This document shows positions 8,815-51,863 of a stretch of DNA of 64,000 bases, one piece after another (within the stretch, counting starts at the first letter, position 1; every line of letters starts with the position of its first letter). A model generated the notes under the pieces. The model saw only the letters and a list, made by a program, of their open reading frames with translations, was not told where the DNA came from and searched no databases. The DNA is taken from assembly GCF_025548535.1 (NCBI RefSeq), contig NZ_JAJLQW010000002.1, positions 186,001-250,000 on the forward strand. Reading direction: 5' to 3'. The stretch comes from Undibacterium sp. Jales W-56 (GTDB lineage: Bacteria; Pseudomonadota; Gammaproteobacteria; Burkholderiales; Burkholderiaceae_D). Made by a program: the position numbers and the translations under genes.

Positions 8815-11800
8815 ATGATGAATTTCTTATTCCTATCAAAACGCTGGGGACCATTCCTCAGTTTGAGTCTCAGTCTTGCTGTGGCACCAGTATCGGCAAT
8901 AGCCGAGGATATCGATATCTATCTAGGCTCGTCCGGGGGGACGGCGACCGCCCCCAAGGTTATGATCATGCTGGACAATACGACCAATGACCTGTTTCCC
9001 GCAAAGCTCTCGGCCATCAAAACGGTGCTGGATAAAATCACCGTGCCTATGGATATCGGACTGGCCCTCTACAGTCCCACCGGTTCGCCCAAAGGGGCTT
9101 ATATCCGCTTTGCACCGCGTAATGTTGGCACCGACATGACCAACCGAACCGCGCTGAAAAATATATTGAGCCTGATATCGACCAAGAACGAATATAACGG
9201 GTTGAAGGACGAGCCTGAAGCGTTCTACGAAATCTTTAAATATTTTACCGGAACCAACCCGTATGCTGGCGGATTGCCTCCGAAGAATCCCAATGTGGAT
9301 ATCATCGGAAATGCCGGCAGTTATGCCGGCGCCACTGCGTTCGGCCAGGGTATGACTTCAGGTTTCGCCTATAGCGGCACCGGCCCCTATAGCAGCGTCA
9401 GTACCACCTGCGCCAACGACTTCATCATTTATATCGCTGCGAATAACGGTTTTTCACCCGGTGATGTCCAGGGCAATCAAAGCTATGAGGGTCTCAGCGC
9501 CGGACCGGCACTTCCACCGGCCAGTCTGGCAACCTACTGGGGAGACGAATGGACGCACTATCTCTACAATTATCCGGGCCACAAGATCTCCACGTATGTA
9601 CTTGATGCTGCATCCCCTGGCAACTCTGATGCTTTCTACACTTCCTATTTGCAGGCGGAGGCCAAGCAAGGCGGCGGCACCTGGCAATACGTGACCAGTG
9701 AAGCAGAAATCGTCACCGCGTTGATGAAAATTTTGGTGCAAATCCAGGGTATCAATTCCACCTTCGCATCGGCCAGCCTGCCTGTGAATGCGACCAACCG
9801 CGATCAAAACAAGAATCAGGTTTTCATCCCGATGTTCCGTCCCACCGTAGATGCCTCGCCACGCTGGATGGGTAATCTGAAGCAGTACCAAGTGATCGGC
9901 AGCGGCAATCTCGATTTAGGCGATGTCACTGGCGCTCCGGCGATCAGCCCGGTCACCGGCTTCGTGACCGAATGTGCCACCAGTTTCTGGACTTCGGATT
10001 CCGGTACATATTGGAATAATCTTCCCGGAACACCTAAGGGAACCTGCCCCGTCACCAGCTATTCACCGTATTCCGATTCGCCAGACGGCCCCATTGTTGA
10101 AAAAGGCGGTGTCGCCGAAGTCATTCGTAAAGGGAACAATCCTCCTGCGACAGATACCTCGCCTACGTGGCTTCCCGACAAACGCGTTATCTATACCCAG
10201 CCTGCGGCCGGCGGTTCTTTGGCGACTTTCAGCGCCACATCACCGGGTCTGGCTACTGAAACAGGTTTGACTGGTACTCCATTGACTGATCTGGCCAATT
10301 TTGTGCTTGGTCAGGATGTCAACGACGAAAATGGTAACAAAAATTATACGGAGAGCCGGCCGTCATTACACGGCGATGCGATTCATTCGCGTCCGCTGCC
10401 GATTGACTACGGTACAAACGGTGTCACAGCTTACTACGGCGCCAACGACGGCATGCTACGTGCGGTAGATACGAAAAGCGGTCAGGAGCGTTGGGCTTTT
10501 GTCGCACCGGAGTTTTATTCAAAACTGCCGCGTCTGAAGAATAACCTCCCGCTGATCAGCTACCCCACCATGCCACCCTTAGTGACGCCAACCCCGACGC
10601 CGAAGGACTATTATTTTGACGGTTCAATCAGCCTTTATCAATCCTTAGCCAATGCCAAGATCTGGATCTATCCAACCATGCGTCGCGGAGGACGGATGCT
10701 GTATGCCTTTGATGTCACCAACCCAGCAACGCCAGCCTTCAAGTGGAAACTCGGTTGCCCACATCTGGGCGACGACAACGCTTGTATCAAAGATCCAAAA
10801 GGATTTGACATGTCAAATATCGGACAAACCTGGTCAACACCTAGAGTGACATCCAAGATCCAGGGATATACCGGACCCGTGCTGGTCATGGGTGCTGGCT
10901 ATGACAAGTGCGAAGATGACGACAAGGCCGCGCCAAGCTGCAGCATTACACCGAAGGGTGCTTTCGTTTATGTGATTGATGCAGACACCGGAGTGGTCAT
11001 CAAGTCATTTCCCACTTTGCGCAGCGTGGCAGCTGATGTGGCGCTACTCCCCACAGCAGGAGTGGTGGATCATGCCTATGCAGCTGACACTGGAGGCAAT
11101 ATTTACCGGATCGATTTTGGGGCCTCCGTCAGCAGCTGGAGCATGACTCGCGTGGCTTACACCAATGGCGCAGGCCGCAAGTTCCTCTTCGCTCCAGCGC
11201 TACTGAGAGCTTCAGCAACCAAGGTCTATCTGGCGCTGGGTTCGGGCGATCGTGAACATCCGTTGCAAAGCAACTACCCTTTCAATCCCAGCCCAGGCAT
11301 CACCAATCGTTTCTATGTGTATGTGGATGACTTGGCGGTGGTTCCGACCACGGCGAACAATCTGGACGATACGAAAATCATGTACGACAGAACCGTCAGC
11401 ACCGCAAGCAGTTGCAATGATCTCGCCGTCTTACCCTCGTCGACGATGAAAGGCTGGTTCATGGATTTAAACCAACACCTGCCGGGATTTGCAGAGCAAA
11501 CAGTCACATCCGCTCTGATTGTCGGAGGTACAGTGATGTTCAGCACAAACCGCCCGGTACCTACAGCCGCAGGTACGTGCTCAACCCCTCTCGGTAAAGC
11601 AGAGGGATATATGGTCAATCTATTTAACGGATCCGGCGCAATTGGTGTTTTAGGTGCTTGTGGCGGTGCCAGATCAAGCACATTCGTTGGAGGAGGTCTG
11701 CCTCCATCTCCGGTGTTAGCTACGGTACCAATTAACGGCAAACCGACGACGATCATTATTGGTGCTGCAAATCGAAGCGGTGCGGCTTGCGGTTCCTTGT

Positions 11801-36018: not shown

Positions 36019-37896
36019 TCAAATCTCAACCTGCGAACCGACTTCAATCACCCGATTCGTTGGCACCTGATAGTAATCCGCTGCATCGCGGGCATTACGC
36101 GACATTGCGACGAACAGCCACTCGCGCCACAACGCCATGCCGCTGCCCGGACGAGAAACAATCGTTTGACGGGCAATGAAATATGAAGTTTCCATCGGTT
36201 CGAAAATCAAACCGTGGGCTTCGCATAGTTCAAGTGCCTTCGGAATATCCGGTTCGTTTTTAAAGCCGTAGTTAACATCAATCTGAAAACAGTTATGTCC
36301 CAGATCGACGACCTTGATACGGTCGGCATAAGGCACCCATGGGATTTCCTTATTGTGCAGAGTCAGGAAGATCACGCGTTCATGCAATATTTTGTTATGC
36401 GATAAATTATGCAAGAGCGCATGCGGCACGCCATCCGCCTCACCACGCAAAAATATTGCGGTACCGTAGACCCGGATCGGTGGCGAGACGAACAGAGAAG
36501 ATAAGAAATCTTCCAGAGGAATCGCGTGCTTCTTCAAGTTCTCAAATACCAGTTCACGACCTCGCTTCCAGGTCACCATGACCGTGAACATGATGATACC
36601 CAGCACCACGGGGAACCAGCCACCGTGGAAAAACTTCAACACGTTCGCAGAGAAGAAAGCGAAATCAATCACCAGGAAAAAACCGGTCGCCATAAAACAC
36701 AGGAAGGGATTATATTTCCAGCCATAACGAATCACGAAGAACGTCAGCAAGGAAGTCACCAGCATCGTACCCGTAACAGCAATACCGTAAGCGGAGGCCA
36801 GGTTTGACGAGGAACCAAAACCCACGACGGCAGCCACCACCACGATCAATTGCAACCAGTTGACTACAGGAATATAGATCTGACCGATCTCTTTAGACGA
36901 GGTGTGAATAATCTTCATGCGCGGCAAGAATCCCAGCGAGATCGCCTGCTTTGTCATTGAGAAGGTGCCGGAAATCGTCGCCTGAGACGCAATCACCGTG
37001 GCAATCGCCGATAAGGCGACGAGAGGATAAATACTCCAGGTGCCCAGTTGCGAATAAAAAGGATTGGCGACTGCTTCTGGATTGGAGATCAACAGCGCGC
37101 CCTGCCCCAGATAATTCAAGCCCAGCGCGGGGAATACAATAATAAACCACGCCATGCGGATAGGCTTACGACCGAAATGCCCCATATCGGCGTACAAGGC
37201 TTCGGCACCAGTGAACGCCAACACAACTGCACCCAGAGCAAGGAAAGCCAGCGAGCGGTTTTCCGTCAAAAAATGGACTGCATGCCATGGATTCAAAGCA
37301 CCTAAAATAATTGGCATTTTAATGATGTTGTAAACACCCATAATCGCCAATGCGATAAACCAGACCACCATAATTGGCCCAAACCATTTGCCGATACCTG
37401 CCGAGCCTTTATGCTGTACCGAGTACAAGCCAATCAGTACCATCAAAGTAATCGGAACCACATACGGAGAAAATGCGGGTGTCGCGACCTCGAGTCCCTC
37501 AATCGCCGACAACACCGAGATCGCTGGCGTGATCACGCCATCGCCATAAAACAGCGCAGCACCAAACAGACCAAGCACGAATAATAAAAAATGCCACTTC
37601 GAAGACTTGCCGACCGACTCAAGAGCCATCGCGGTCAGCGCCATGATACCGCCCTCACCCCGGTTGTCCGCTCGCAAAATCAAGGTGACATATTTGACTG
37701 CAACGATAATGAACAAGCCCCACAGGATCAGTGAAACAATACCGAAAATATTTGCTTCCGTGAGCGGTAGACCATGTTCTTTTGAAAAAACCTCTTTCAT
37801 CGTGTAAAGAGGACTGGTGCCGATATCGCCATAGACGATGCCGATGGCAGCTAACGTTAGAGCCGTCAAGCTGCTTTTTGAGTGTTGATTAGCCAA
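36019..37896 (-). CDS. kup: Kup, low-affinity K+ transporter
   Basis: 625-residue KUP/HAK/KT transporter that takes up K+ with H+. The hallmark LAAIGIVYGDIGTSPLYTMKEVF opens the protein, followed by 12 TM segments (up to about residue 450) with GEGGIMAL, ALFYGDGVITPAISVLSAIEG and FTGAEALYADMGHFGRKPI, then a cytoplasmic C-terminal domain. AAGG precedes the ATG. Kup is usually constitutive; the inducible kdp system lies about 10 kb away on the same strand. Confidence 0.97.
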   Translation of the reverse strand: MANQHSKSSLTALTLAAIGIVYGDIGTSPLYTMKEVFSKEHGLPLTEANIFGIVSLILWGLFIIVAVKYVTLILRADNRGEGGIMALTAMALESVGKSSKWHFLLFVLGLFGAALFYGDGVITPAISVLSAIEGLEVATPAFSPYVVPITLMVLIGLYSVQHKGSAGIGKWFGPIMVVWFIALAIMGVYNIIKMPIILGALNPWHAVHFLTENRSLAFLALGAVVLAFTGAEALYADMGHFGRKPIRMAWFIIVFPALGLNYLGQGALLISNPEAVANPFYSQLGTWSIYPLVALSAIATVIASQATISGTFSMTKQAISLGFLPRMKIIHTSSKEIGQIYIPVVNWLQLIVVVAAVVGFGSSSNLASAYGIAVTGTMLVTSLLTFFVIRYGWKYNPFLCFMATGFFLVIDFAFFSANVLKFFHGGWFPVVLGIIMFTVMVTWKRGRELVFENLKKHAIPLEDFLSSLFVSPPIRVYGTAIFLRGEADGVPHALLHNLSHNKILHERVIFLTLHNKEIPWVPYADRIKVVDLGHNCFQIDVNYGFKNEPDIPKALELCEAHGLIFEPMETSYFIARQTIVSRPGSGMALWREWLFVAMSRNARDAADYYQVPTNRVIEVGSQVEI

Positions 37897-38322
37897 TTGT
37901 GTACCTTGTTATTATTGGTGCATTGCACAATAGGTGATCCCGCAGGGAATTTCAAGAGAGAAATTCAGGAATCAGCTAAGCATATGTATTTGTGCAACAA
38001 CTATCGACACTTTGCAAAGTTTTGAGGGTGGTGTCAATAAAAACAAGTGACGGATAGGTAGCGCAATACCAACTCAAAACTCAATTATTCAACAAAAAAT
38101 TGTTCCATCCAATTTTCATGAATAATAAAATCCAATAAATGTTAAATTATGTAAAAAATCATTCAATGAAAGATTTAAATCCTAGTTGATAGAAAGCAAC
38201 ATGTCATATTTCTCTTATTGCAGTCGTATTATTTTGGTTTAACATAAGTGCAACACGAGATGCCTGGCAGTTGTCAATTATAAAGCGCGCAATTCCGATT
38301 TACTCATGGTGTAACTACACTG
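37897..38322. promoter_or_regulatory. A+T-rich divergent region between kup and the signalling cluster
   Basis: 426 bp without a gene. It is markedly richer in A+T than its surroundings, especially 38030-38240. It should hold promoters for kup and for the kinase cluster, but I cannot pick one boundary with confidence. Confidence 0.45.
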
Positions 38323-39660
38323 ATGAACGATCAATTTGACGAATTCAGCTCATTATCACAGCTCCACGAAACGACGGTTTCGCATGGCAACGGAAGTTTA
38401 ACGCCTGCTACACCAACTACAACAGCCCGCCTCCAATACCTGATAGAAAATACCCCCGCAATCATTTACAGCAGCGTACCAACAGGCGATTTCAAGATGA
38501 CCTTCGTGAGTAGCAATGCGCTGCGGGTGCTTGGTTATCATCCGGAAGAAATGGTAGCCGATCCTAATTTCTGGTTTGACCATATTCATCCGGAAGACAT
38601 ACCGCAAATATTCTCCAGTATTGCAATGCTATTTACCGAGGGTAGCAGAACCTACGAATACCGCTTTAAAAGCAGTAATGACCAATACATCTGGATGCAC
38701 GACATGCTCCGTCTGATACGCGATGCCGAGGGGAATCCGATAGAAGTGGTGGGGTCGCTCACGGATATCACGCAACGCAAACAGATGGAAGAAGCCTTGC
38801 AAAAAAAAGGGGAAGAACAACAAGCTCTGATCCAAAAATTACAAGAAGCTCAAGAGCAGTTGCTGCAATCGGAAAAAATGGCCTCCGTCGGCCAACTTGC
38901 CGCTGGTATCGCGCATGAAATCAACAACCCCGTTGGCTTTGTGAATTCGAATATGGGTTCTTTACAAAATTATGTAGGAACCCTGTTTAACGTCATCGAG
39001 CAGTACGATAAATTATTTCAACATATCCCACCCGCTTCCGAATTTCATCAACGATTAGCCGCCATTAGGGAAAAGGCTGATCTGGTTTTTTTAAAAGACG
39101 ATATAGAAGATCTCGTACGGGAGTCGATGGATGGTTTAAAGCGCGTCAAGGACATTGTGCAATCCTTAAAGGATTTTTCCCATGTTGGCGAAGCGGACTG
39201 GCAAGAAGCAGATATCCATCAAGGGCTGGAAAGCACTTTAAACATCGTCAAAAATGAAATCAAATATAAAGCCAATATCGTCAAGGAATACGGAAAATTA
39301 CCGCCAGTGAAATGCCTCATTTCACAACTCAATCAAGTTTTCATGAATCTCTTTGTCAATGCATCGTATGCGATCAAAGACAGCGGTGTTATCCACGTCA
39401 GCACGGGGGTTCAAAACGATTGGGTTTGGATCAAAGTGAGCGACACCGGCTCCGGTATTTCACCCGAAAATCTAAAACATATCTTTGAGCCGTTTTTCAC
39501 CACAAAACCGATAGGCAGCGGCACCGGTTTAGGGCTTTCTTTAGCCTACGGCATTATTAAGAAGCATCGTGGAAAAATCGAAGTTGAAAGTGAATTAGGC
39601 AAAGGAACCAGTTTTACCATACGCCTACCCATACATCCTGAGAATGCACCGGAAACTTAA
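38323..39660 (+). CDS. PAS-domain sensor histidine kinase (first of two paralogues)
   Basis: 445 residues, soluble (no TM segment). A PAS_3-type domain (about 35-152: [33 protein letters not shown]), a coiled coil (about 155-185), then the kinase core with phospho-acceptor His198 in [18 protein letters not shown]. An extra helical segment of about 70 residues separates the two DHp helices, then N box [12 protein letters not shown]1 VSDTGSGI and G2 [12 protein letters not shown]. The core closely resembles that of the kinase at 43672. A 139-bp gap follows, so it may be transcribed separately from the next genes. Cognate receivers are probably the REC domains encoded downstream. Confidence 0.9.
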
Positions 39661-39799
39661 CGCGAGAAATAACGTAATAAATTATCACGAGCGACCTAGA
39701 GATTATGCAGCGCCCTGGAGATGCGGTTACAAATATCACCCAACATACGCTTAACTATTTTTGGCTGAATTTTGACTCTCTTAATTCTTAAAGAACTAT

Positions 39800-42499
39800 A
39801 TGGCAAACCAAATAGATTACAACGCAAAAATAAAGGACATACTTGAATCACACAAAAGTAATGAAACCACATTACTGAAGCGATTAAGTTTTCTTGAATT
39901 TGAACAGAGAGATGCCGAGTCGCTCGCAGACTTGGGGAAAAAAATCTCTCCATATAGAGAAAAACTATTGCGTATATTGTCAGAACACATCAAGAGCGCA
40001 CCTCAATTAAACCAGTTACTTGCACCCTCTGATTATGAAGAATTAGATGAATGTCATCGTCTCTATTTTTCTCTTTTAACTGAAGGAAATTACGACAAAA
40101 CTTATTTACATAACCGACTGAATTCGGCAGTTAAACAACAAAATTTACATCTAAGCCACGAGTGGTATTTAGGTATCTACAGAAAATATTTATCCGAAGC
40201 GACATCATTAGCGTGGGAAATAAGTGAGCATGATTTTTCGCTATTTAGCAGTTATATCGAAGCATTAATCAAACTGGCCTTCTTTGATATCGGCTTGACT
40301 CTCGACGTCTACTTTTATACGGAAAAATGTAAATTAGAAGAGGCAAAAAAAGCGCAGGAACAATTACAGAAAGAATTTTTATTTCAACAAAAACACGATG
40401 AACTCACGGGGCTTCCGAACCGCAGTTTACTGAAAGATCGCACCAAACAAGCCATTTACTCAGCCGACAGAAAAGCGACTACCGTCGCTCTACTCCATTT
40501 AGGTCTGGATCACTTCAAGCTTGTGAACGATGGGGTTGGATATGGTACGGGCGATCAGCTTCTCAAAAACATTGCGGAGCGTCTTCATCAGTGCGTACAT
40601 GAAGCAGATACCGTCTCTTATTATGGCGGCGATGAATTCGTATTAATTCTAAAAGACTTTGAAAAAACAGAAAATATCATCAATGTCTGCGAAAGAATTT
40701 CTTGCGTCATCGCCGAACCCTATTTAGCGAACAACATAGAATTGCATCTCTCCTGCAGTATCGGTATTGCACTTTACCCGCAAGACAGCAGCAATGATGA
40801 TGATCTGTTTACTTTTGCTGATCTGGCGCTTAATCGCGCCAAACATCTGGGGCGCAGCAATTTCCAATTTTATTCAGCAAAAATGAATGAAATCACCAAG
40901 GACAGAGTTGAAATATCGAACGACCTTCACAAAGCGATTATCGCGGAAGAACTCTCGCTGCATTACCAACCCAAGGCAGACCTGCAAACTGGAAAAATCG
41001 TCGGTATGGAAGCGCTACTGCGCTGGGATCATCCCAACAGAGGCATGATTCCGCCCACCTACTTCATTCCTATTGCAGAAGAATCAGGCCTGATCGAAAA
41101 ACTGGGCGACTGGGTCATAAAACAGGTTTGTCGCGACATTGCCGCATGGACAAAAGATGGCGTTATTGCGCCGTGCATCGCCATCAATGTCTCTCCAAGA
41201 CAATTGCAGAATCCATTCTTCACGACCAAGTTACTCAACATCCTGAAAGACATGCAAATCGGGCACGATATGATTTCTCTGGAGGTTACAGAAAGCGTGC
41301 TGATGGATCACAGCAGCCCAGTTGGCAATACCCTGAAAGGATTCAAAGAACATGGTATTGCCTTAGCCTTAGACGATTTTGGCACCGGCTATTCAGCGCT
41401 CAGCTACCTCAAGCACTTCCCCTTCGATTACGTAAAAATAGATCAATCATTCGTTCGAGATGTAATTGAAAATACCGGAGATGCTTCCATTTCAAAAGCA
41501 GTCATTGCGATGGCGCATAGCCTGGGTATTAAAGTCATTGCGGAAGGCGTTGAGACGGAAGCGCAATGTGAATTCTTAAGCCTGAATATGTGCGATCAAA
41601 TCCAGGGGTATTTACTGTCCAGGCCCATGCCAGCAGATCAGGCCAAGGAATTTCTTCAAAGCGAAATCTGCTTGAAAAATCACCTGTTGCGTTTAGAAAA
41701 ACCGCAAAGATCATTACTATTAGTCGACGATGAACCCAATATTTTGTCATCGGTAAAACGACTTTTAAGACGCGATGGGTATCAGATATATACCGCCAAT
41801 AGCGGTCAAGAAGGACTCAAATTACTCAGCGAAAATAAAGTAGACGTCATCGTATCTGATCAAAGGATGCCAGAAATGACGGGAGTTGAGTTTTTACGGA
41901 ACGCAAAAAAACTTTACCCGGACACGATCCGTATCGTTTTATCCGGATATACCGAATTACAATCAATTACGGATGCCATCAACGAAGGAGCCATCTATAA
42001 ATTCCTGACTAAACCTTGGGAAGATGAGCAACTCAGAGAACAGATCGCAGAGGCATTTCGCCACAAAGAAATGGCCGATGAGAATCGTCGTCTCCATATC
42101 CAAATCCAGACAACTAATCAAGAGTTAGCTACCGCCAATCGTTATTTAGCAGATGTATTAAAACAAAAACAATTGCAGATTAAACGCGATGAAACAAGCT
42201 TAGAAATTGTCCGGGAAGTACTGCAATATATCCCGGTACCGCTTGTCGGCATAGACGACAATGACATGATCGCATTCATCAATCAAGCCGCCGAAGTTTT
42301 ATTGGAAAAATCACCCCCGATGCTAGGTGAGGATATACGGCTGTTATCAGAAGATTTCAGTGTCTCCCTCAAAACATATGCTGCCGGTGAAGATTTTCAA
42401 ATCTCGATAGAAGGACACGATTTCATCGTGAACTGGAAAATGATGGGAGAACGATCACAATCGAGCGGAAAATTAATTACCTTACGAATCGCGGATTAG
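39800..42499 (+). CDS. Globin-like/GGDEF/EAL/REC/PAS cyclic-di-GMP protein
   Basis: 899 residues. Order: globin-coupled-sensor-like helical domain (1-175; RLSFLEFEQRDAESLADL and HEWYLGIYRKYL), coiled coil, GGDEF (195-355), EAL (375-620), REC with Asp687 (637-755; VIVSDQRMPEM, FLTKPWED), coiled coil, and a C-terminal PAS-like domain (about 795-890). The EAL motifs look intact: GMEALLRW (Glu404), NVSPRQLQ, LEVTES, DDFGTGYSALSYLK, AEGVETEAQ, QGYLLSRP. The GGDEF signature is kept (276-280), but the usual metal Asp is Gly235 and the inhibitory RxxD is HEAD. At the proximal-heme-His position of globin sensors sits Gln113. The net activity predicted is c-di-GMP hydrolysis, controlled by phosphorylation of REC and by the N-terminal sensor. 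Confidence 0.88.
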   Translation: MANQIDYNAKIKDILESHKSNETTLLKRLSFLEFEQRDAESLADLGKKISPYREKLLRILSEHIKSAPQLNQLLAPSDYEELDECHRLYFSLLTEGNYDKTYLHNRLNSAVKQQNLHLSHEWYLGIYRKYLSEATSLAWEISEHDFSLFSSYIEALIKLAFFDIGLTLDVYFYTEKCKLEEAKKAQEQLQKEFLFQQKHDELTGLPNRSLLKDRTKQAIYSADRKATTVALLHLGLDHFKLVNDGVGYGTGDQLLKNIAERLHQCVHEADTVSYYGGDEFVLILKDFEKTENIINVCERISCVIAEPYLANNIELHLSCSIGIALYPQDSSNDDDLFTFADLALNRAKHLGRSNFQFYSAKMNEITKDRVEISNDLHKAIIAEELSLHYQPKADLQTGKIVGMEALLRWDHPNRGMIPPTYFIPIAEESGLIEKLGDWVIKQVCRDIAAWTKDGVIAPCIAINVSPRQLQNPFFTTKLLNILKDMQIGHDMISLEVTESVLMDHSSPVGNTLKGFKEHGIALALDDFGTGYSALSYLKHFPFDYVKIDQSFVRDVIENTGDASISKAVIAMAHSLGIKVIAEGVETEAQCEFLSLNMCDQIQGYLLSRPMPADQAKEFLQSEICLKNHLLRLEKPQRSLLLVDDEPNILSSVKRLLRRDGYQIYTANSGQEGLKLLSENKVDVIVSDQRMPEMTGVEFLRNAKKLYPDTIRIVLSGYTELQSITDAINEGAIYKFLTKPWEDEQLREQIAEAFRHKEMADENRRLHIQIQTTNQELATANRYLADVLKQKQLQIKRDETSLEIVREVLQYIPVPLVGIDDNDMIAFINQAAEVLLEKSPPMLGEDIRLLSEDFSVSLKTYAAGEDFQISIEGHDFIVNWKMMGERSQSSGKLITLRIAD

Positions 42500-42500
42500 T

Positions 42501-42815
42501 ATGGACGACTATATTCCGATTCAAAATGCCCTGCCCGACATGGTCATCGCCAAAGATGTTGTTGACCAAAATGAGCATGTCTTACTGCCGGAAGGTACCG
42601 TACTCACCTCCACCCATATCCAGTCCTTAATAAAACGCGGCATTACTCAAATTTGCATTCAATTGACTGAGGCAACGGCAATTGATCATAGCGCCGATTT
42701 GTTACGCCAGCGAGAACGTCTCGATCAACTATTTCATAAGACATCCCATTTCCCAATCAATTCTCTCCTCAAGAGCTATGTCATGCAATATCGTGAGGAG
42801 AAGACGAATGAGTGA
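42501..42815 (+). CDS. Stand-alone HD-GYP-associated domain protein
   Basis: A 104-residue protein that starts 1 bp after the previous stop. Residues 4-52 (IPIQNALPDMVIAKDVVD, HVLLPEGTVLTSTHIQSL) match the domain found at the C terminus of the REC/HD-GYP-like protein of this cluster (its residues 391-445). In other proteins this small domain accompanies HD-GYP modules. The rest is a charged helical tail. Function unknown; a binding or adaptor role within the cluster is inferred. It overlaps the HDOD gene by 8 bases. Confidence 0.75.
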   Translation: MDDYIPIQNALPDMVIAKDVVDQNEHVLLPEGTVLTSTHIQSLIKRGITQICIQLTEATAIDHSADLLRQRERLDQLFHKTSHFPINSLLKSYVMQYREEKTNE

Positions 42816-43659
42816 AGCAAATAAAGTATCAATGGCGGAACTTGCCGCAAAACTTCAGCAACTTCCTGCCCTATCATCCATCGTGATGGAGTTACTGCAT
42901 AGCATGGAGACAGATGATGTCGATATCGGCTCGATCGCGACAAAAATTTCACATGACCAAACTTTGACTGCCAAGGCATTGCGTCTCGCCAATTCATCGT
43001 TTTATGGCATGCAATATAAAATAAAAACTATCCAGGAAGCCATCACTTTATTAGGTTTTCGTAGCGTACAGACACTCGTTACTACCAGCGCTATTATCGG
43101 TAACTTTACAGAAAACCAATCCGCCGTTTTTAATATCACCTCGTTTTGGAGACACGCTATCGCCAGCGCAATCTGCGCCCGGGAAATAGCCCATTTTGTC
43201 AACGCAAGTCCCGATAAGGCATTTACGGCAAGTTTGTTGCACGATATCGGAAAACTGGTATTAGCCACTACTTACCGGGAACAATATGCTCAGGTTCTTG
43301 CATCGCAAAAGGAATCTAATACCTATCTGTTCTTGCTGGAAAGAAGTATGCTCGGCATTGACCATGCTGCTGTTGGCAATGCGCTGGCAGCCTATTGGCA
43401 ATTTCCGGAAGAAATACAAAAAGCCATCGCTTATCATCACGAAATTCCACCAGATAACGATAGCAAGTTAGCGATGATAGTGCATATTGCGGACGTGATT
43501 GCACATGCTCTGGATCTGACAAAAATAGAAGAGGATGATGTACCCGAAATCAATGTATTGGCATGGGAACGATTAGGATTAAGCTATGAAGCGTGCAAAA
43601 AAATATTTAATAATACCGAGACGCAGTTTGAAGAAATCTGCCAGATACTTATAGCTTGA
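42808..43659 (+). CDS. HDOD-domain protein
   Basis: 283 residues from ATG 42808, chosen because GAGGAGA lies just upstream; the frame is open further 5' inside the preceding gene. The HDOD domain runs from LAAKLQQLPALSSIVMELL through TLTAKALRLANSSFYGM and LLHDIGKLVLATTY to IAYHHEIP. The HD pair and a HH pair are kept, as in many HDOD proteins, though the domain is generally regarded as non-catalytic in signalling contexts. Its role in the cluster is unknown. Confidence 0.88.
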   Translation: MSEANKVSMAELAAKLQQLPALSSIVMELLHSMETDDVDIGSIATKISHDQTLTAKALRLANSSFYGMQYKIKTIQEAITLLGFRSVQTLVTTSAIIGNFTENQSAVFNITSFWRHAIASAICAREIAHFVNASPDKAFTASLLHDIGKLVLATTYREQYAQVLASQKESNTYLFLLERSMLGIDHAAVGNALAAYWQFPEEIQKAIAYHHEIPPDNDSKLAMIVHIADVIAHALDLTKIEEDDVPEINVLAWERLGLSYEACKKIFNNTETQFEEICQILIA

Positions 43660-43671
43660 TCCGGAGATATA

Positions 43672-45243
43672 GTGATAAATCCCCATTCCAATAAACAAAG
43701 TCAAACAAACGATGCCAGTCCAGACTCGGAAGGCAATTTAACGGTCCGGTCCAGACCAGCAAGTCTGTTGTTACAAGAAAAACCCGACGAATTAGCGTTA
43801 AATTTGATGGATTTAGACTTGTTTCAATTCTTGGATAGCAATCCGGTACCAACCTTCGTCATCAATAAAGAGCACGTTATTACCCATTGGAATAAAGCTA
43901 CGGAACGCTTGCTGGGTTACTCTGCCGGCATGATGGTTTCCACTCAAAAACAATGGCAACCGTTTTACCGCCATAAACGGCCTGTTTTGGCCGATGTCGT
44001 CATCGCAGAGCAGGTAGAAAAAAGTATCAATACCTTCTACGACAAAAAATTTAAGGCTTCAACCTTAATTAAGGGCGCTTATGAAGTCGATGATTTTTTT
44101 CCTCATCTTGGACAGAGCGGGCTCTGGCTGCATTTTACCGCTGCTCCCATCTATAATAATCGCGCTGAAGTAATTGGTGCAATCGAAACACTGGAGGACA
44201 TCACTGAACGCCACGACGCTGAAGAGGCTCTGCGTAAAGCCTATGACGATCTCGACATGCTGGTCAAAAAAAGAACAGTCCAATTGGCAGAAGCCAACCG
44301 GAAACTGGAAGCAGATCTGGAACAGCGGGCCACTATTGAGTTTGAGTTAATTCGACGGAATGGCGAATTAACCCAACTCAATATCCAGCTTTCCAAAGCG
44401 CAGGAACAATTACTGCAGTCGGAAAAATTAGCGTCGATAGGACAATTGGCCGCAGGCGTAGCGCATGAAATCAATAATCCCGTAGGATATATTTTTTCAA
44501 ATTTCAGTTCGCTAGAAAAATACATTACCGATCTGTTCGAGATATTGAGCGCCTACGAATCGGCGGAGCAGCACATCAGCACGTCCGCCGTTCGCCTGGA
44601 ACTTACAGAAATCAAAAACCGGATCGAACTGGAATTTCTGAAGGACGATATCCCGGAATTAATGGCGCAATCTAAAGAGGGAATTGCGCGCGTCCGCAAG
44701 ATTGTCCAAGACCTCAAGGACTTTTCCAGAACCGATACTAATCATGTATGGCAATGGGCTGACCTGCACAGAGGGATAGATTCAACACTGAATATCGTCA
44801 ACAATGAGATCAAATATAAAGCAGATGTGATTAAGGAATATGGAAATATCCCCGACGTTGAGTGCTTGCCAACAGAAATCAATCAGGTCATCATGAATTT
44901 GGTTGTCAATGCCAGTCATGCCATAGGTGAAGAGCGCGGTAAGATTACGGTACGAACCTTCCGTGAGCCTGAATTCGAAGATGAATTTGTGATCATCGAA
45001 GTTGAAGACAACGGATCGGGCATTCCTAAAGAAATTACCTCAAGAATTTTTGACCCGTTCTTTACGACAAAACCGATAGGCAAAGGGACTGGATTAGGCC
45101 TCTCGCTAGCTTATGGTGTGATTCAAAAACATCATGGACGAATTAGCATTAGTTCAGAAGTAGGCAAAGGTAGTTGCTTCCGTATCAGGCTACCGATTAA
45201 ACACGTTGAACCGATTAATCCAGACGAGGAAAGCGCATCGTGA
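43672..45243 (+). CDS. PAS-domain sensor histidine kinase (second paralogue)
   Basis: 523 residues from GTG 43672, supported by GGAG at 43663-43666. A PAS domain (about 50-180; [40 protein letters not shown]), a long coiled coil (185-250), His265 in [18 protein letters not shown], the same inter-helix insertion as the first kinase, and HATPase motifs [31 protein letters not shown]. Soluble. The stop overlaps the start of the next gene by 4 bases, pairing this kinase directly with the REC/HD-GYP-like regulator. Confidence 0.9.
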
Positions 45244-46643
45244 GTGAATCCCTCCTCCCCGATCAGCAATCAGAAGCGGAGCGAATGGAGCAGTTTGTCC
45301 AGTCTGCAAAAATTTTATGTGTCGATGACGAGCCGAATATTCTATCGTCGTTACGCCGTCTTTTTCGTGCCAAAGGTTATAAGGTTTTAATTGCCAATAG
45401 CGGACAAGAAGGCCTGGCAGTGATGGAAACCGAAGCGGTTGATCTGGTCATCTCCGACATGCGCATGCCAGAAATGGATGGCGCTCAATTTTTAGAAAAA
45501 GTCAGAAGTCGTTGGCCCGATACCCTGCGCCTCTTATTGACTGGATATGCGGATGTTCAAGCCATCATCGATGCGATCAATCGCGGTGAAATTTATCGTT
45601 ATATTACCAAGCCATGGGATGATAACGACATCATGCTGGTGGTAAGGCAGGCATTGGAACGCAAGGCGCTGGAGAGCGAAAAACGAAGATTGGAAGCATT
45701 GACTCTACGCCAGAATGATGAGCTCAAAGAATTAAATCATAGCCTGGAAGCAAAAGTCGAAGCCAGGACGGCTGAACTCAAAACAGCGCATGATTCCCTG
45801 GTCCAGGTCAACGACAAACTTAAATCCAGCTTTTTGACTTCGATAAAAGTTTTTTCCAATTTGATAGAAATGCGAGGCGGCAAACTGGCTGGCCGCTCCC
45901 GGCGAGTCGCAGATCTGGCCCGAAAAATCGCCGTCAGAATGGGTTGCAACAACAAAGACTCTCAAGAAATTTTTGTCGCAGGTTTATTGGTCGATATTGG
46001 CAAAATCGGTTTCTCGGACGAGATGCTGAATACACCTGTGAATAATATGAGCGGAGATGAACTGGGGGAATACCATAAACATACGGTAAGGGCGGAACAA
46101 TTGCTATTACCGCTAGAGGATTTGCAAGGAACGGCCAAAATACTCAGGTCACAACACGAACGATTTGACGGCACCGGCTTCCCGGATGGACTACCAGGGG
46201 ATGCTATCCCGTTAGGCGCACGCATACTGGCTCTGGCCAGCGATTACGATAGTCTGCAAACGGGTAGCTTAGTACAACGCCGCTTACCCGCAGATGAAGC
46301 ACAAAGGGTGGTGCAGCGTGGCTTAAAAAGTCGCTATGACGAAAACGTCGTCAATGCATTCAATCAAGTCATGAGCGGCCATCTGGGTGAGCCAGTCGCC
46401 GATAAAGAGATCGCTATCCGCGATCTGCAAGCCGGCATGATCTTATCGACAGAAATGATATCGCGTGATGGCGTCATGCTGTTACCGGCAGATCATATAT
46501 TGACTGATCGTATTATTGAAAAAATACGTCTGTATGATGCGTCTAACGGTGGAAAAATGACCGTCAGAGTCCGTACCGCCCCGCTGAGTGCCGCGGCAAG
46601 CCTGCAGGGAAACTCATACGCCAGCATCATAAGGAGAACATAA
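45240..46643 (+). CDS. Response regulator with degenerate HD-GYP domain
   Basis: 467 residues: REC (22-140) with Asp73 in LVISDMRMPEM and FxxTKPW-type end (YITKPWDDND), coiled coil (140-195), HD-GYP-like domain (196-385), and a C-terminal small domain (391-445). Compared with active HD-GYP enzymes, several metal or active-site positions are changed: the HSRRV His is Arg219, the HD pair is Val251-Asp252, the HHE His pair is Gln305-His306, GYP is GFP (313-315) and the ADxxDA Asp is Ser334. It is therefore predicted not to hydrolyse c-di-GMP. In Shewanella HnoD, a REC/degenerate-HD-GYP protein, acts as an allosteric inhibitor of an EAL enzyme; a similar role here is inferred. Confidence 0.88.
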   Translation: MSESLLPDQQSEAERMEQFVQSAKILCVDDEPNILSSLRRLFRAKGYKVLIANSGQEGLAVMETEAVDLVISDMRMPEMDGAQFLEKVRSRWPDTLRLLLTGYADVQAIIDAINRGEIYRYITKPWDDNDIMLVVRQALERKALESEKRRLEALTLRQNDELKELNHSLEAKVEARTAELKTAHDSLVQVNDKLKSSFLTSIKVFSNLIEMRGGKLAGRSRRVADLARKIAVRMGCNNKDSQEIFVAGLLVDIGKIGFSDEMLNTPVNNMSGDELGEYHKHTVRAEQLLLPLEDLQGTAKILRSQHERFDGTGFPDGLPGDAIPLGARILALASDYDSLQTGSLVQRRLPADEAQRVVQRGLKSRYDENVVNAFNQVMSGHLGEPVADKEIAIRDLQAGMILSTEMISRDGVMLLPADHILTDRIIEKIRLYDASNGGKMTVRVRTAPLSAAASLQGNSYASIIRRT

Positions 46644-47197
46644 TGCGTCGCGCTTTACTAGTGGATGATGAAATCAATGTACTGCATGCCTTACAGCGCA
46701 GCCTTCGCCCCATCGCACAAAAATTGAATTTTGATATTGAGCTATGCAATGACCCCAGGCTTGCCATTCAAAAACTGGCGGCCGCTCAATACGATTTTAT
46801 TATTTCGGACTACCATATGCCGTCGATGAATGGCGTCGATTTTTTCAGGATTGCGAAAGAAATTCAGGGAGATGCCATCCGCATGATGCTGAGTGCCTCG
46901 GCTGACTTTAAGACCATCATGGGTGCCGTCAATGAAGCGGAGGTGTTCCGGTACATCACTAAACCCTGGGAAACCGCCGACCTGGAAGAAAACGTTCGCC
47001 TGGCCCTGGAACTCAGAGAGCAATTGCAATACGACAAACAAGTGCTTGATCAGGCACAAGCGGAACGTGAACGACTTACCCCCGAAGAACTGGAAAAAAA
47101 ACGCCTGGAAGAAAGCGAGCCGGGCATTACCAATGTCATCTGGGACGCACGCGGTGGCGTGCTTCTCGATAACACGGATGATCTTTCCGGCAAATAA
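46643..47197 (+). CDS. Stand-alone REC response regulator
   Basis: 184 residues: REC (1-125) with DD at 8-9 (LLVDDE), Asp56 in FIISDYHMPSM and the KPW motif (YITKPWETAD), followed by a charged coiled coil and a short tail ending GVLLDNTDDLSGK. No output domain is recognised. Start and preceding stop overlap by one base (TAATG). It may be a phosphate sink or a connector for the two kinases. Confidence 0.88.
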   Translation: MRRALLVDDEINVLHALQRSLRPIAQKLNFDIELCNDPRLAIQKLAAAQYDFIISDYHMPSMNGVDFFRIAKEIQGDAIRMMLSASADFKTIMGAVNEAEVFRYITKPWETADLEENVRLALELREQLQYDKQVLDQAQAERERLTPEELEKKRLEESEPGITNVIWDARGGVLLDNTDDLSGK

Positions 47198-48331: not shown

Positions 48332-49033
48332 TCAGGCCGGTAGCAGCAGTCGATAACCCACCGCTGTTTCGGTCAACAGATAACGCGGTTGAGTCGGATC
48401 ATCTTCGAGTTTCTGCCGCAAATGTCCCATGTAAATTCGCAGATAATGTCCATCCTCTGCATGAGATGGACCCCATACCTCGCGCAGCAATTGCAGATTG
48501 GTCACGACCCGCCCCGCATTCTTGACCAGGATACTGAGCAGACGAAATTCCGTAGGCGTCAGATGCACCATATTGCCTGCCTTGGTGACCAGGCGCGCTT
48601 GCTGATCGACCCGGATATCGCCGAATTGAACGATGCCGTCGGCCGCAGCGCCTGGCTGGCGCTGGCGTCGCAAGGTTGCCCGTACGCGTGCCAACAATTC
48701 GCCGACGCCGAACGGCTTACCCAGAAAATCATCGGCACCGGCATCGAGCGCCTTGATTTTATCGGCCTCATTTACCCGCGCGGATAACACGATGACAGGC
48801 ACGCCGGACCACTTGCGTAAATCTTTAATGAAGGCGATGCCATCGCCATCCGGCAAACCAAGGTCGAGAATAATCAAGTCAGGCTGGCGGGTGCCGGCAT
48901 CAATTAAACCGCGCTGAAATCCGCCCGCCTCTTCGACCTGCCAGCCCTCGTCCTCCAGGGCGCTGCGCACAAAACGACGGATTTGCGGCTCGTCCTCAAC
49001 CAATAGCGCGGTAGGCGTAGATTCTGTTTTCAT
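48332..49033 (-). CDS. kdpE: KdpE, response regulator of the kdp operon
   Basis: 233-residue OmpR-type regulator: REC with Asp57 (IILDLGLPDGDG), Lys in GKPFGVGELLARV, and a winged-helix DNA-binding domain (HLTPTEFRLLSILVKNAGRV, YMGHLRQKLEDDPTQPRYL). It activates kdpFABC under K+ limitation or salt stress. It lies 55 bp downstream of kdpD on the same strand. Confidence 0.96.
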   Translation of the reverse strand: MKTESTPTALLVEDEPQIRRFVRSALEDEGWQVEEAGGFQRGLIDAGTRQPDLIILDLGLPDGDGIAFIKDLRKWSGVPVIVLSARVNEADKIKALDAGADDFLGKPFGVGELLARVRATLRRQRQPGAAADGIVQFGDIRVDQQARLVTKAGNMVHLTPTEFRLLSILVKNAGRVVTNLQLLREVWGPSHAEDGHYLRIYMGHLRQKLEDDPTQPRYLLTETAVGYRLLLPA

Positions 49034-49088
49034 CAGTCAATCAGTATTTATTGAGTTGTATTGAATTTTATTGAGTTTATTACAGCAT

Positions 49089-51863
49089 TTACAGATCAGT
49101 CTCAATGCCGGCATCAAAATCCGGCAATGCCGGCGGCGTGCCGAGCGGCAAGGTAAAGCAAATGCAAGCGCCACCCAGTAGCGATTTGGCAGGGGCAATA
49201 CGACCGTTATGCGCCTCTACAATCGCACGGCAAATCGCCAGCCCCAAGCCGACGCCGGGCGTTGCCGACTCGCGTTCGCCGCGGGTAAATTTTTCAAAAA
49301 TAATATCTTCTCGTCCAGGCGGCAATCCGGGGCCATTATCATCGACCATGACCTTGATCGTTTGATGGATATCGTCGATTTCTGCCCCTATCGAGATGGC
49401 CGCATTACCGCTCGAATATTTCGCCGCATTCTCCATCAAATTGCAGAGCACCCGTTCTATCAGCACCGCATCGAAATGCAGCAAAGGCAGATTTGCCGGT
49501 AAATTGGTCTGCACCTTGACCCGTGCCAGCGCCGCCGTGCTGGCGCGCAAGGCACTGCCAACGACCTCTTCCAAAGTTTGCCATTGCAAATTCAATTTCA
49601 CTTCGCCACTTTGTATGCGCGCCATATCCAGCAGATTCGCGACCAGCGCACTCATGCGCAAGGATTCGGCATGCAGATTGTGCGCCATCTGCTGCTGCAA
49701 ATCGCTCAGCGCCGGTTTGGACATGGTCAGGGATTCGGATATGCCTACCAAGGATGTCAACGGCGTTCTCAGATCATGCGACAAGGCGGCCAGCAAGGAA
49801 TTGCGCAAGCGCTCCGACTCCATATGAATCAAAGCCTCTTGCGCCACCTCGATGTAATGCACGCGCTCCAGCGCAATGGCAGCGAGTGCGGCAAATGTAT
49901 CGAGTTGCTGGCGCTGCTCCGGTATTAATATCCAGCGCCGGTTATCCGGCTGTATCGCCAATAAGCCGCGGGTTCGCATCGGTGCCACCAGAGGCAGATA
50001 AAAGAAATTACTTCCGGGCAGCGTATCCGTACCTATTCCCGCGGCTTCGACTTTATCAAAAGCCCATTGCGCTATACCCAAATCCAGTCCCTCTGTCCGC
50101 GTGGCAGGCGCTTGCAATTTGCCCGCGGCATCGGGCAATAACAAAATCGCCCTGGCGCGAAAAGCCCGCTGAATAATTACCTGCGTACTCTCAGAAATCT
50201 GTTCATCTTGCAAGACGCCAGACAGGTCGCGGGCAAACTCATACAAGGCCCGCGCCCGCGATTCGCGGTGAGAGGCAACTCTTGCCTGATAGCGCAAACC
50301 CGCCGTCAAATACCCGGTCAACAATCCCACCGCCAGCATCACTGCAAATGTCACCAGATATTGCAAATCACTGACGGCAAAAGTAAAACGCGGCGGCACA
50401 AAGAAAAAATCGAATACCGCAACGCCGACTACCGTTGCCAATACCGATGGCCCACGCCCCAGACGAAACGCCACCAGCACCACCACCAGCATGAACAGCA
50501 TCGCGATATTCACCAGATGCAAAACGCCCAGCAGCGGTGTGCAGACGACCGCCGCACCGACAATCGCCAGCAGGGCATACAGATAACGTAAGCGTTTGGC
50601 CGCCCAGCGGGTTGGATTGATCGATTGCTCCGCAGCGCTCCATGCGATATTTTCGGCAGTGGTGTCGAAGGCCTGATTGCGGCTGCGGCGATATTGCTGA
50701 TCCGACTGGCCGCTGGCATCATCCGTGCTCGCACGTCCCATCTCGATCAAATCCAGATCCGGTGCCAGCTCCGCCATTTTTCTGTGCAAGGATGTCTGCA
50801 TCCATCGCGGACGATGACGGCCCAGTATGATCTTGGAAAAATTATGGCTATGCGCGTATTCCACGACTTCATGCGCGACATCCTGACCGCTCAGCACGGC
50901 GGTCTTGGCACCGAGATCCTGGGCCAACTTCAGGCTTTTTAAAATCCGCTCGCGCTGGCTGGCAGGCAAACGTTGCAGTTGCGGCGTTTCGACATAGACC
51001 GCATGCCATTCGGCACTGAGCTGGCTCGCCAGGCGTGCAGCGCTGCGTATCAAATGATCGGCACCGGGTTCGCTGCCGACACAAGCCAGCAAAGCGGCAT
51101 CGGTCTTCCAGACTTTGCCTATCGACTTTTCGATACGATAGGCTTGCACATCTTCTTCGACCCGATCGGCGGTGCGGCGCAATGCGAGTTCGCGCAATGC
51201 GATCAGATTTCCTTTGCGAAAAAAATTCTTCGCCGCCCGCTCGGCCTGCTGCGCCTGATAAACCCGTCCGGTTTGCAAGCGCGCCAATAATTCATCGGCA
51301 GGCACATCGACCAGCACCACCTCATCGGCATCATCAAATACCGTATCCGGCACCGTCTCAGCGACGCGGATGCCAGTGATACCGCCCACGACGTCGTTCA
51401 GACTATCAAGATGCTGCACATTGACCGTGGTGTACACATCAATCCCGGCATCGAGTAATTCCTCAATATCCTGCCAGCGCTTAGGGTGGCGTGAGCCGGG
51501 CGCATTCGAATGCGCCAACTCGTCCATCAATATCAAAGGCGGCTTGCGCGCCAATGCGCTATCGATGTCGAATTCGTTCAAGGTTTTGCCGCGATACTCG
51601 ATCGCCTTTGGCGGCAATACCAGCAAACCATCGAGCAAAGCCAAAGTCTCGCGACGACCATGGGTCTCGGCCACGCCGATCAATACCTGCTGCCCTTCCG
51701 ATTGCAATTTGCGTGCAGCGCTGAGCATGGCGTAGGTTTTGCCCACACCGGCGGAGGCGCCGAAATAGATACGCAACTTGCCACGCGAGGCGCGACGCTC
51801 CTGCATTTGCACATGTGCGAGCAATACATCAGGATCAGGGCGTTGGTCGTTCAGATTAGCCAT
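49089..51863 (-). CDS. kdpD: KdpD, K+-responsive sensor kinase
   Basis: 924 residues. N-terminal KdpD domain with Walker A FGASAGVGKT (residues 34-43) and DELAHSNAPGSRHPKRWQD, a Usp-like domain (about 255-380), four TM helices (about 430-530), a GAF-like region (about 550-670), and a kinase core with His696 in ALSHDLRTPLTSLVG, N box CNLMENAAKYS, G1 VDDNGPGLP and G2 GVGLGLAICRAI. It senses low K+ and turgor-related signals and phosphorylates KdpE. Slightly longer than the E. coli protein at the C terminus. Confidence 0.96.
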   Translation of the reverse strand: MANLNDQRPDPDVLLAHVQMQERRASRGKLRIYFGASAGVGKTYAMLSAARKLQSEGQQVLIGVAETHGRRETLALLDGLLVLPPKAIEYRGKTLNEFDIDSALARKPPLILMDELAHSNAPGSRHPKRWQDIEELLDAGIDVYTTVNVQHLDSLNDVVGGITGIRVAETVPDTVFDDADEVVLVDVPADELLARLQTGRVYQAQQAERAAKNFFRKGNLIALRELALRRTADRVEEDVQAYRIEKSIGKVWKTDAALLACVGSEPGADHLIRSAARLASQLSAEWHAVYVETPQLQRLPASQRERILKSLKLAQDLGAKTAVLSGQDVAHEVVEYAHSHNFSKIILGRHRPRWMQTSLHRKMAELAPDLDLIEMGRASTDDASGQSDQQYRRSRNQAFDTTAENIAWSAAEQSINPTRWAAKRLRYLYALLAIVGAAVVCTPLLGVLHLVNIAMLFMLVVVLVAFRLGRGPSVLATVVGVAVFDFFFVPPRFTFAVSDLQYLVTFAVMLAVGLLTGYLTAGLRYQARVASHRESRARALYEFARDLSGVLQDEQISESTQVIIQRAFRARAILLLPDAAGKLQAPATRTEGLDLGIAQWAFDKVEAAGIGTDTLPGSNFFYLPLVAPMRTRGLLAIQPDNRRWILIPEQRQQLDTFAALAAIALERVHYIEVAQEALIHMESERLRNSLLAALSHDLRTPLTSLVGISESLTMSKPALSDLQQQMAHNLHAESLRMSALVANLLDMARIQSGEVKLNLQWQTLEEVVGSALRASTAALARVKVQTNLPANLPLLHFDAVLIERVLCNLMENAAKYSSGNAAISIGAEIDDIHQTIKVMVDDNGPGLPPGREDIIFEKFTRGERESATPGVGLGLAICRAIVEAHNGRIAPAKSLLGGACICFTLPLGTPPALPDFDAGIETDL

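Follow-up and report, generated by a model that had tools for sequence, protein, structure and literature searches.

The locus at positions 38323-47197 of a 64-kb window from Undibacterium sp. Jales W-56 (the window being the whole stretch of DNA that was analysed) holds seven same-direction signalling genes and raises the question whether these form one circuit and what that circuit acts on. A previous interpretation made from the letters alone (the sequence-only reading) had proposed an analogue of the Shewanella H-NOX (Hno) circuit, i.e., a kinase acting on an EAL enzyme and on a REC/degenerate HD-GYP protein that inhibits it. With moderate confidence, we read the cluster as a branched phospho-signalling module with two kinases, three receivers and a phosphodiesterase (PDE) that lowers cyclic di-GMP (c-di-GMP) as its usual output. 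Its link to NosK-NosR is one of family and that to Hno one of design, and it belongs wholly to neither since their sensors were not found. The cluster itself is a conserved betaproteobacterial set whose gene order is kept well beyond the genus.

The presence of the seven open reading frames (ORFs) was confirmed by ORF and Pfam analysis. Genes and domains are as follows:

38323-39660, + strand: kinase 1 (HK1, P0001), soluble PAS histidine kinase, 445 amino acids, motif HEINN
39800-42499, + strand: EAL protein (P0002), Protoglobin-GGDEF-EAL-REC-PAS, 899 amino acids
39863-40321, + strand: Protoglobin domain of P0002, residues 22-174, with the F8-position His replaced by Gln113 (40136-40138)
40391-40858, + strand: GGDEF domain of P0002, carrying Gly instead of the first metal Asp, as a cyclase probably inactive
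40919-41626, + strand: EAL domain of P0002, eight of eight checked catalytic residues kept
41717-42046, + strand: receiver of the EAL protein (RECb), placed by Pfam Response_reg and the receiver tree
42209-42322, + strand: PAS-like C-terminal domain of P0002, weak PAS match
42501-42815, + strand: p104, small protein of no Pfam family, N-terminal half resembling the C-terminal domain of the NosR-type protein
42808-43659, + strand: HDOD protein (P0004), 283 amino acids counted from ATG 42808
43672-45243, + strand: kinase 2 (HK2, P0005), soluble PAS histidine kinase, 523 amino acids, GTG start, motif HEINN
45240-46643, + strand: NosR-family REC/degenerate HD-GYP regulator (P0006), 467 amino acids, with V251-D252 at the HD position
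46643-47197, + strand: lone receiver (REC7, P0007), 184 amino acids, phospho-acceptor Asp kept

Pfam matches over cut-off are PAS_3 and HATPase_c for kinase 1 (its HisKA match is slightly below, 24.9 vs 26.9), PAS, HisKA and HATPase_c for kinase 2, Protoglobin (66.1 bits, cut-off 25), GGDEF, EAL and Response_reg for the EAL protein, HDOD for P0004, Response_reg and HD_5 for P0006, and Response_reg only for P0007. The C-terminal PAS domain of the EAL protein stays below cut-off (15.9 bits in the whole protein, 19.5 for the fragment alone); a PAS match (PF00989) at E ≤ 0.01 is found in 7 of 12 scanned REC-PAS proteins, window included. No transmembrane-like stretch is seen in the seven proteins (maximal 19-residue Kyte-Doolittle mean 1.39, compared to 2.52 for a neighbouring Kup-like protein). 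The earlier description of two soluble PAS kinases stands. The same holds for the claim of co-directional genes that overlap or nearly touch from 39800 onward. That is, kinase 1 and the EAL gene are 139 nucleotides (nt) apart, 1 nt separates the latter from p104, and the p104 stop and the HDOD start overlap by 8 nt, given that the HDOD protein most likely begins at ATG 42808 inside the p104 end. A gap of 12 nt between HDOD and kinase 2 is followed by overlaps of 4 nt and 1 nt.

To assess conservation, relatives of P0006 were searched at different thresholds. At E ≤ 1e-60, the search of 60 genomes, with the source genome among them, finds them in 18; of the 35 other genomes of the genus, 12 hold one, which makes for a patchy distribution of the cluster at genus level. 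At E ≤ 1e-80, 159 of 392 family genomes and 21 of 44 genera hold one. Hidden Markov models (HMMs) built from the window and BLAST-picked relatives served to annotate 141 stretches, namely the window itself and 140 loci (L019-L158). Leaving out 2 stretches that lack a NosR-type gene (the counterpart of P0006) and 10 duplicates yields 129 distinct loci. All locus counts derive from a six-frame HMM pass, as longest-ORF gene picks fail in many G+C-rich loci; they are conditional on a P0006 or P0002 relative, because nearly all loci were chosen for holding one, near species among them are non-independent, and absences are upper bounds since contig ends cut some loci.

A core locus was defined by a REC-PAS protein plus an HDOD or kinase-2-like protein (at least 250 bits) on the strand of the NosR-type gene, which holds for 98 of the 129 distinct loci. 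Within 11 kb on that strand, we find REC-PAS in 103 loci, HDOD in 88, EAL in 87, kinase 2 (at least 500 bits) in 82, the lone receiver in 72 and p104 in 55; kinase 1 (at least 500 bits, either strand) is present in 50. For the core loci, the respective numbers are 82 for HDOD, 76 for kinase 2 (at least 500 bits), 60 for the lone receiver, 54 for p104 and 45 for kinase 1, and p104, HDOD, kinase 2 and lone receiver occur all together in 31. A frequent order is EAL-REC-PAS, p104, HDOD, kinase 2, NosR-type, lone receiver, with kinase 1 placed upstream, downstream or reversed. Conservation of the gene set, which had been chosen beforehand as a refutation test, is therefore observed, if patchily among the 35 same-genus genomes, and the HDOD protein, formerly regarded as an extra, is a core gene. 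No report describing the cluster was found in the open literature, judged by titles and abstract openings and with subscription journals mostly outside, which is weak evidence that it is unreported.

With regard to the kinases and receivers, the phospho-acceptor Asp is kept in all 125 NosR-type proteins, in 97 of 98 REC-PAS proteins (the other is a gap) and in 72/72 lone receivers, and the HEINN motif in 50/50 instances of kinase 1 and 82/82 of kinase 2. The two kinases share 56% identity over the kinase core (321.5 bits, compared to 110.5 for the next kinase of the genome). In a FastTree phylogeny, all three receivers of the cluster group with their orthologues from six distant loci (local support 0.989), and each type has its own clade (NosR-type 0.972, EAL protein 0.980, lone receiver 0.992); this tree includes 20 other receivers of the genome, mostly but not all best matches of the NosR model, and omits C1:1178850 (internal stop codon) and lower-scoring receivers. 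The three receivers thus appear to share a common ancestor and the kinases to be close kin, as far as this, like anatomy and conservation, can be read from sequence. At the helix-1 positions, which we take to be kinase-specificity sites, the EAL protein carries P,N,S,K,R and the NosR-type protein P,N,S,R,R. Given these near-identical residues, both look like substrates of one kinase, while the lone receiver (I,N,H,Q,R) is less certain. Receiver grouping and kinase kinship together favour a branched circuit with two kinases and three receivers, as in Shewanella Hno.

It is very improbable, in our view, that the genes lie side by side as independent signalling pairs that share no circuit. Such an arrangement would fit the position of kinase 1, which precedes the EAL gene by 139 nt in the window and, in other loci, is often encoded on the opposite strand or not found, and the wiring between kinases and receivers is itself putative; the overlapping genes, the order kept over many genera and the paralogous receivers and kinases argue against it.

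For the branched module, we propose that the two related soluble PAS kinases would phosphorylate the EAL phosphodiesterase, the NosR-type pseudo-HD-GYP protein and the lone receiver. Phosphorylation would set the EAL activity, the NosR-type pseudo-enzyme would modulate it as an HnoD-like brake, the lone receiver would serve as a competing phosphate acceptor, and the p104-HDOD pair may be a non-enzymatic reader of the outcome. We infer phosphotransfer, the direction of regulation including inhibition, the signal, and the roles of p104, HDOD and lone receiver; Hno and NosK-NosR are the precedents (PMC6335343, PMC8846402, PMC12570481).

Hno of Shewanella oneidensis (HnoK/HnoS, HnoB/HnoC/HnoD) also works with two kinases and three regulators (PMC6335343), so the parts list is even closer to it than claimed: by analogy, an EAL enzyme and a degenerate HD-GYP protein are shared along with the numbers of kinases and receivers (PMC6335343, PMC8846402). 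Differences are found in the sensor, as H-NOX (HNOB, PF07700) has no match in the source genome (4.19 Mb, rated 100% complete), in the third receiver, which in Hno is a transcription factor while P0007 matches Response_reg only and has no recognised DNA-binding domain, and in the EAL protein of Undibacterium, where EAL precedes REC and which carries globin, GGDEF and PAS domains. Furthermore, HDOD and p104 are added.

Hno had been the sole comparison so far, while NosR is the named family that comes closest. Against the NCBIfam model NF053512 ('NosR family', cut-off 400), P0006 reaches 571.6 bits as the only match over cut-off in the source genome, and 11/11 members of its alignment (A1) match this model at E ≤ 1e-50. 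According to PMC12570481, NosR is a degenerate HD-GYP regulator phosphorylated by NosK, which is controlled by the haem-FIST protein NosP, and its authors hypothesise that NosR inhibits a phosphodiesterase or activates a cyclase. The cluster resembles this NosP-NosK-NosR system of Burkholderia in that P0006 falls into the same curated family and in its soluble HEINN kinase. One may thus suspect an NO (nitric oxide) circuit of this type whose NO sensor was lost, replaced or encoded elsewhere, in line with the family score of P0006 and with HEINN in both kinases, the motif reported for NosK (PMC12570481). We give this little credence. Neither FIST (PF08495, the NosP domain) nor H-NOX is matched in the complete-rated source genome, and a FIST gene of at least 300 bits, on either strand and no more than 11 kb from the NosR-type gene, is found in just 4 of 129 distinct loci; L151 and L152 add remote FIST relatives (22-23% identity). 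Beside the missing FIST match, the Undibacterium regulator differs from the NosR system in its company of EAL-REC-PAS, p104, HDOD, second kinase and lone receiver. The database name 'NosR family' should not be taken as a sign of nitric-oxide sensing here. As a separate observation, L057, L144, L154 and L158 combine a NosR-type cluster with a nearby FIST (NosP-like) gene and are possible links to NO sensing, and a contig stretch without NosR-type gene (L038 10597-13815, G031) encodes a FIST protein directly followed by a GGDEF-EAL-REC protein.

At the seven HD-GYP ligand positions, presumably the metal-binding pattern H...HD...H...HH...D, P0006 reads RVDHQHD instead of the expected HHDHHHD, i.e., its site is degenerate as the sequence-only reading had stated. 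The full signature is present in 38 of 125 NosR-type proteins, with at least 5 state changes in a quick tree. Here, 'degenerate' denotes a strict residue rule in which single and conservative changes count as loss; as some departures are conservative (e.g., D to E), it is a residue rule and no activity test. In another Undibacterium (G026), the NosR-type gene is split over two reading frames (L027 6068-7380, - strand), while those other cluster genes that were found there are whole.

The EAL domain of P0002, in contrast, keeps all eight of what we take to be its catalytic and metal residues (E N E D D K E Q), and the earlier claim of an intact site stands. Among relatives, the site is intact in 61 of 77, and EAL is fused to REC-PAS in 78 of 98 core loci. 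Both numbers point to selection on phosphodiesterase activity in most lineages, Undibacterium included, and the EAL domain of the Undibacterium protein is probably functional. With regard to the GGDEF domain, the motif itself is kept while the first metal Asp, whose position we assume, is Gly; an accepted motif plus this Asp are both present in 13 of 48 relatives.

The N-terminal Protoglobin domain, the only protoglobin match in the source genome, had been read as a globin-like sensor. Aligned globin relatives show I-x-H-Q-x-L-G-L or F-A-H-Q-x-M-G-L where the window protein has K-Q-Q-N-L-H-L, which puts Gln113 in the place of His; L-x-L and W-Y-L just behind it hold the alignment in register. 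The haem-binding His is kept in 6 of 12 distinct globin-bearing proteins and missing in the other 6, window included; two of the six keepers (L021 and L022) are near-identical. An AlphaFold model based on five sequences has a mean predicted local distance difference test score (pLDDT) of 80.1. Its best matches in the PDB are globin-coupled sensors with E-values of 0.0056 and above, i.e., none below 0.001, and the sequence gives one weak globin match among solved structures (2w31, E 0.015). The N-terminus of P0002 is thus read as a globin fold in which the usual kind of haem binding is unlikely here. This sets it apart from globin-coupled sensors (DosC, AfGcHK, HemAT): as in DosC, Protoglobin is N-terminal to a c-di-GMP domain, but the proximal His that binds haem in DosC (H98; PMC5549716) is Gln and the cyclase is degenerate.

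A functional haem-based O2 sensor that switches EAL directly is thus an improbable role for the globin. The above-cut-off Protoglobin match and the His kept in half of the globin-bearing proteins would suit such a role, and a His four residues after Gln113 could conceivably take over; the Gln at the F8 position in the window, the loss in 6/12 and the anchored alignment speak against it. Of the globin-like/GGDEF/EAL/REC/PAS protein, all domains are therefore present, with PAS weak, while the haem-ligating His and the first metal Asp of GGDEF are gone. By sequence, the pattern is that of an intact EAL next to degenerate GGDEF, HD-GYP and haem sites. On the whole, the earlier interpretation is partly supported: conservation, EAL, HD-GYP and parts list speak for it, while the globin-like sensor, the 'extra' HDOD protein and the missed NosR family do not.

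Several observations weigh against phosphodiesterase control as the output of the branched module. Of the 98 core loci, 17 have a REC-PAS protein without EAL domain (contig ends truncate a further 3), such that a circuit built on the inhibition of EAL, as proposed earlier, cannot be the general function. For 13 of these 17, no other EAL is found in the examined stretch (at most 11 kb, for some less than 2 kb on one side), and phosphodiesterase control thus seems non-universal. Furthermore, the lone receiver is absent from 38 of 98 core loci and, given its deviating helix-1 residues, may have another kinase. The EAL enzyme is hence a common but dispensable part rather than an invariant one.

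Comparing both sites, 20 of the 93 core loci that were scored have neither an intact REC-PAS-fused EAL nor a full HD-GYP. A further EAL protein is encoded nearby in 4 of them; the examined stretch shows none in the other 16, which include L092, L093, L096 and L105 of Janthinobacterium. Where EAL is intact (n=61, window included), HD-GYP is full in 13 loci, has 1-2 changes in 26 and at least 3 in 22, i.e., it is changed in 48 of the 61 loci with intact EAL and scored NosR protein. The respective numbers (full, 1-2, at least 3 changes) are 6, 4 and 5 for degenerate EAL, 6, 5 and 6 for absent EAL, and 1, 0 and 3 for partial or unknown EAL. A reciprocal swap, in which EAL dies where HD-GYP is intact and vice versa, is not borne out, as the cross-tabulation is mixed with 13 loci intact for both and 20/93 for neither. 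A test of EAL vs HD-GYP state with independent pairs on the tree had only 8 pairs, with the HD-GYP state differing in none or one per draw. In L129, L132, L140, L145 and L148 (four recorded as Zoogloea), EAL is altered at 6-7 of 8 catalytic residues and the NosR-type HD-GYP is full.

The sensor part varies as well. The N-termini of 10 examined relatives comprise MASE1-PAS, PAS, HAMP-PAS-GAF, CHASE-PAS, Cache-PAS, PAS-GAF and CBS-GAF, and some REC-PAS relatives are without any N-terminal sensor part. This variation, the EAL-less REC-PAS proteins (17/98, 13 with no other EAL in the stretch) and the loci lacking both sites under the strict rule (20/93, 16 of them with no other EAL nearby) suggest an enzyme-optional hub. 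Therein, REC-PAS, p104-HDOD, kinase 2 and the NosR-type pseudo-enzyme would be constant and signal by protein contacts, while EAL and the globin, CHASE, Cache or MASE1 inputs would be exchangeable. We consider this unlikely, though far from negligible. The frequent fusion (78/98) and intactness (61/77) of EAL argue for selection on phosphodiesterase activity, the genomes concerned could rely on a separate EAL encoded outside the neighbouring stretches that were searched, and the strict rule scores single and conservative changes as loss.

The p104-HDOD pair bears on both the branched module and such a hub. The sequence-only reading had listed a 104-residue domain protein; it is present, yet belongs to no Pfam family and has a domain in common with the C-terminal part of P0006, to which its N-terminal half aligns with an hhalign probability of 95.7 (E 1.1e-8). 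At E ≤ 0.01, Pfam yields nothing for the protein of the window and, over 28 members, a single stray match. A first BLAST pass (L019-L038) had suggested that p104 is unique to the window, which is wrong: the HMM finds it in 56/129 distinct loci, and 75 of the 145 family genomes hold it according to a profile search, with two copies in the source genome. Its model reaches a pLDDT of 83.6 and has no PDB match below E 0.001, and we claim no fold. HDOD lies directly 3' of p104 in 55 of the 56 loci. It also adjoins p104 in all 10 fetched p104 loci from stretches without NosR-type gene, where a GGDEF protein follows in 4, all from same-genus genomes. The second pair of the source genome (L179, C20, 9057-10282) precedes a cNMP-binding/GGDEF protein (10300-11304) with motifs VDLDHFK and GGEEM.

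SadB, an HDOD protein, is described as binding c-di-GMP (PMC6543031), with an HDOD domain lacking HD-GYP activity. By this analogy, we infer that p104-HDOD may be a c-di-GMP-linked effector pair. P0004 shares the HDOD domain with SadB-type effectors and differs in that its Pfam matches include no YbaK-like domain and in its pairing with p104.

A more general proposal is put forward tentatively, with somewhat less than even confidence: most NosR-family proteins of the betaproteobacterial group may not be NO regulators but parts of an undescribed hub (REC-PAS, p104-HDOD, both kinases, pseudo-HD-GYP and lone receiver) with exchangeable sensor and EAL, whose real output would be protein contact, probably via p104-HDOD as a portable effector pair. 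Under this proposal, the contact output follows from the hub outliving the loss of all c-di-GMP catalytic sites. If true, a single genome would employ p104-HDOD both with a phosphodiesterase and, in a second instance, with a cyclase. The loci further provide a natural series in which the same kinase/receiver set comes with EAL intact, decayed or absent and HD-GYP intact or dead, which makes the role of degenerate HD-GYP regulators and that of HDOD proteins in c-di-GMP signalling testable.

Finally, we scanned the surroundings of the cluster. No RNA element or riboswitch exceeds its gathering score at the cluster (the window shows four tRNAs only), promoter and terminator sites within 37800-39850 are not more numerous than in shuffles, and no other copies of cluster parts are over cut-off in the rest of the window. 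The cluster is flanked by a Kup-like potassium transporter gene (36019-37896, - strand) and by KdpE/KdpD-like genes (48332-51863, - strand), named by eye from their translations.

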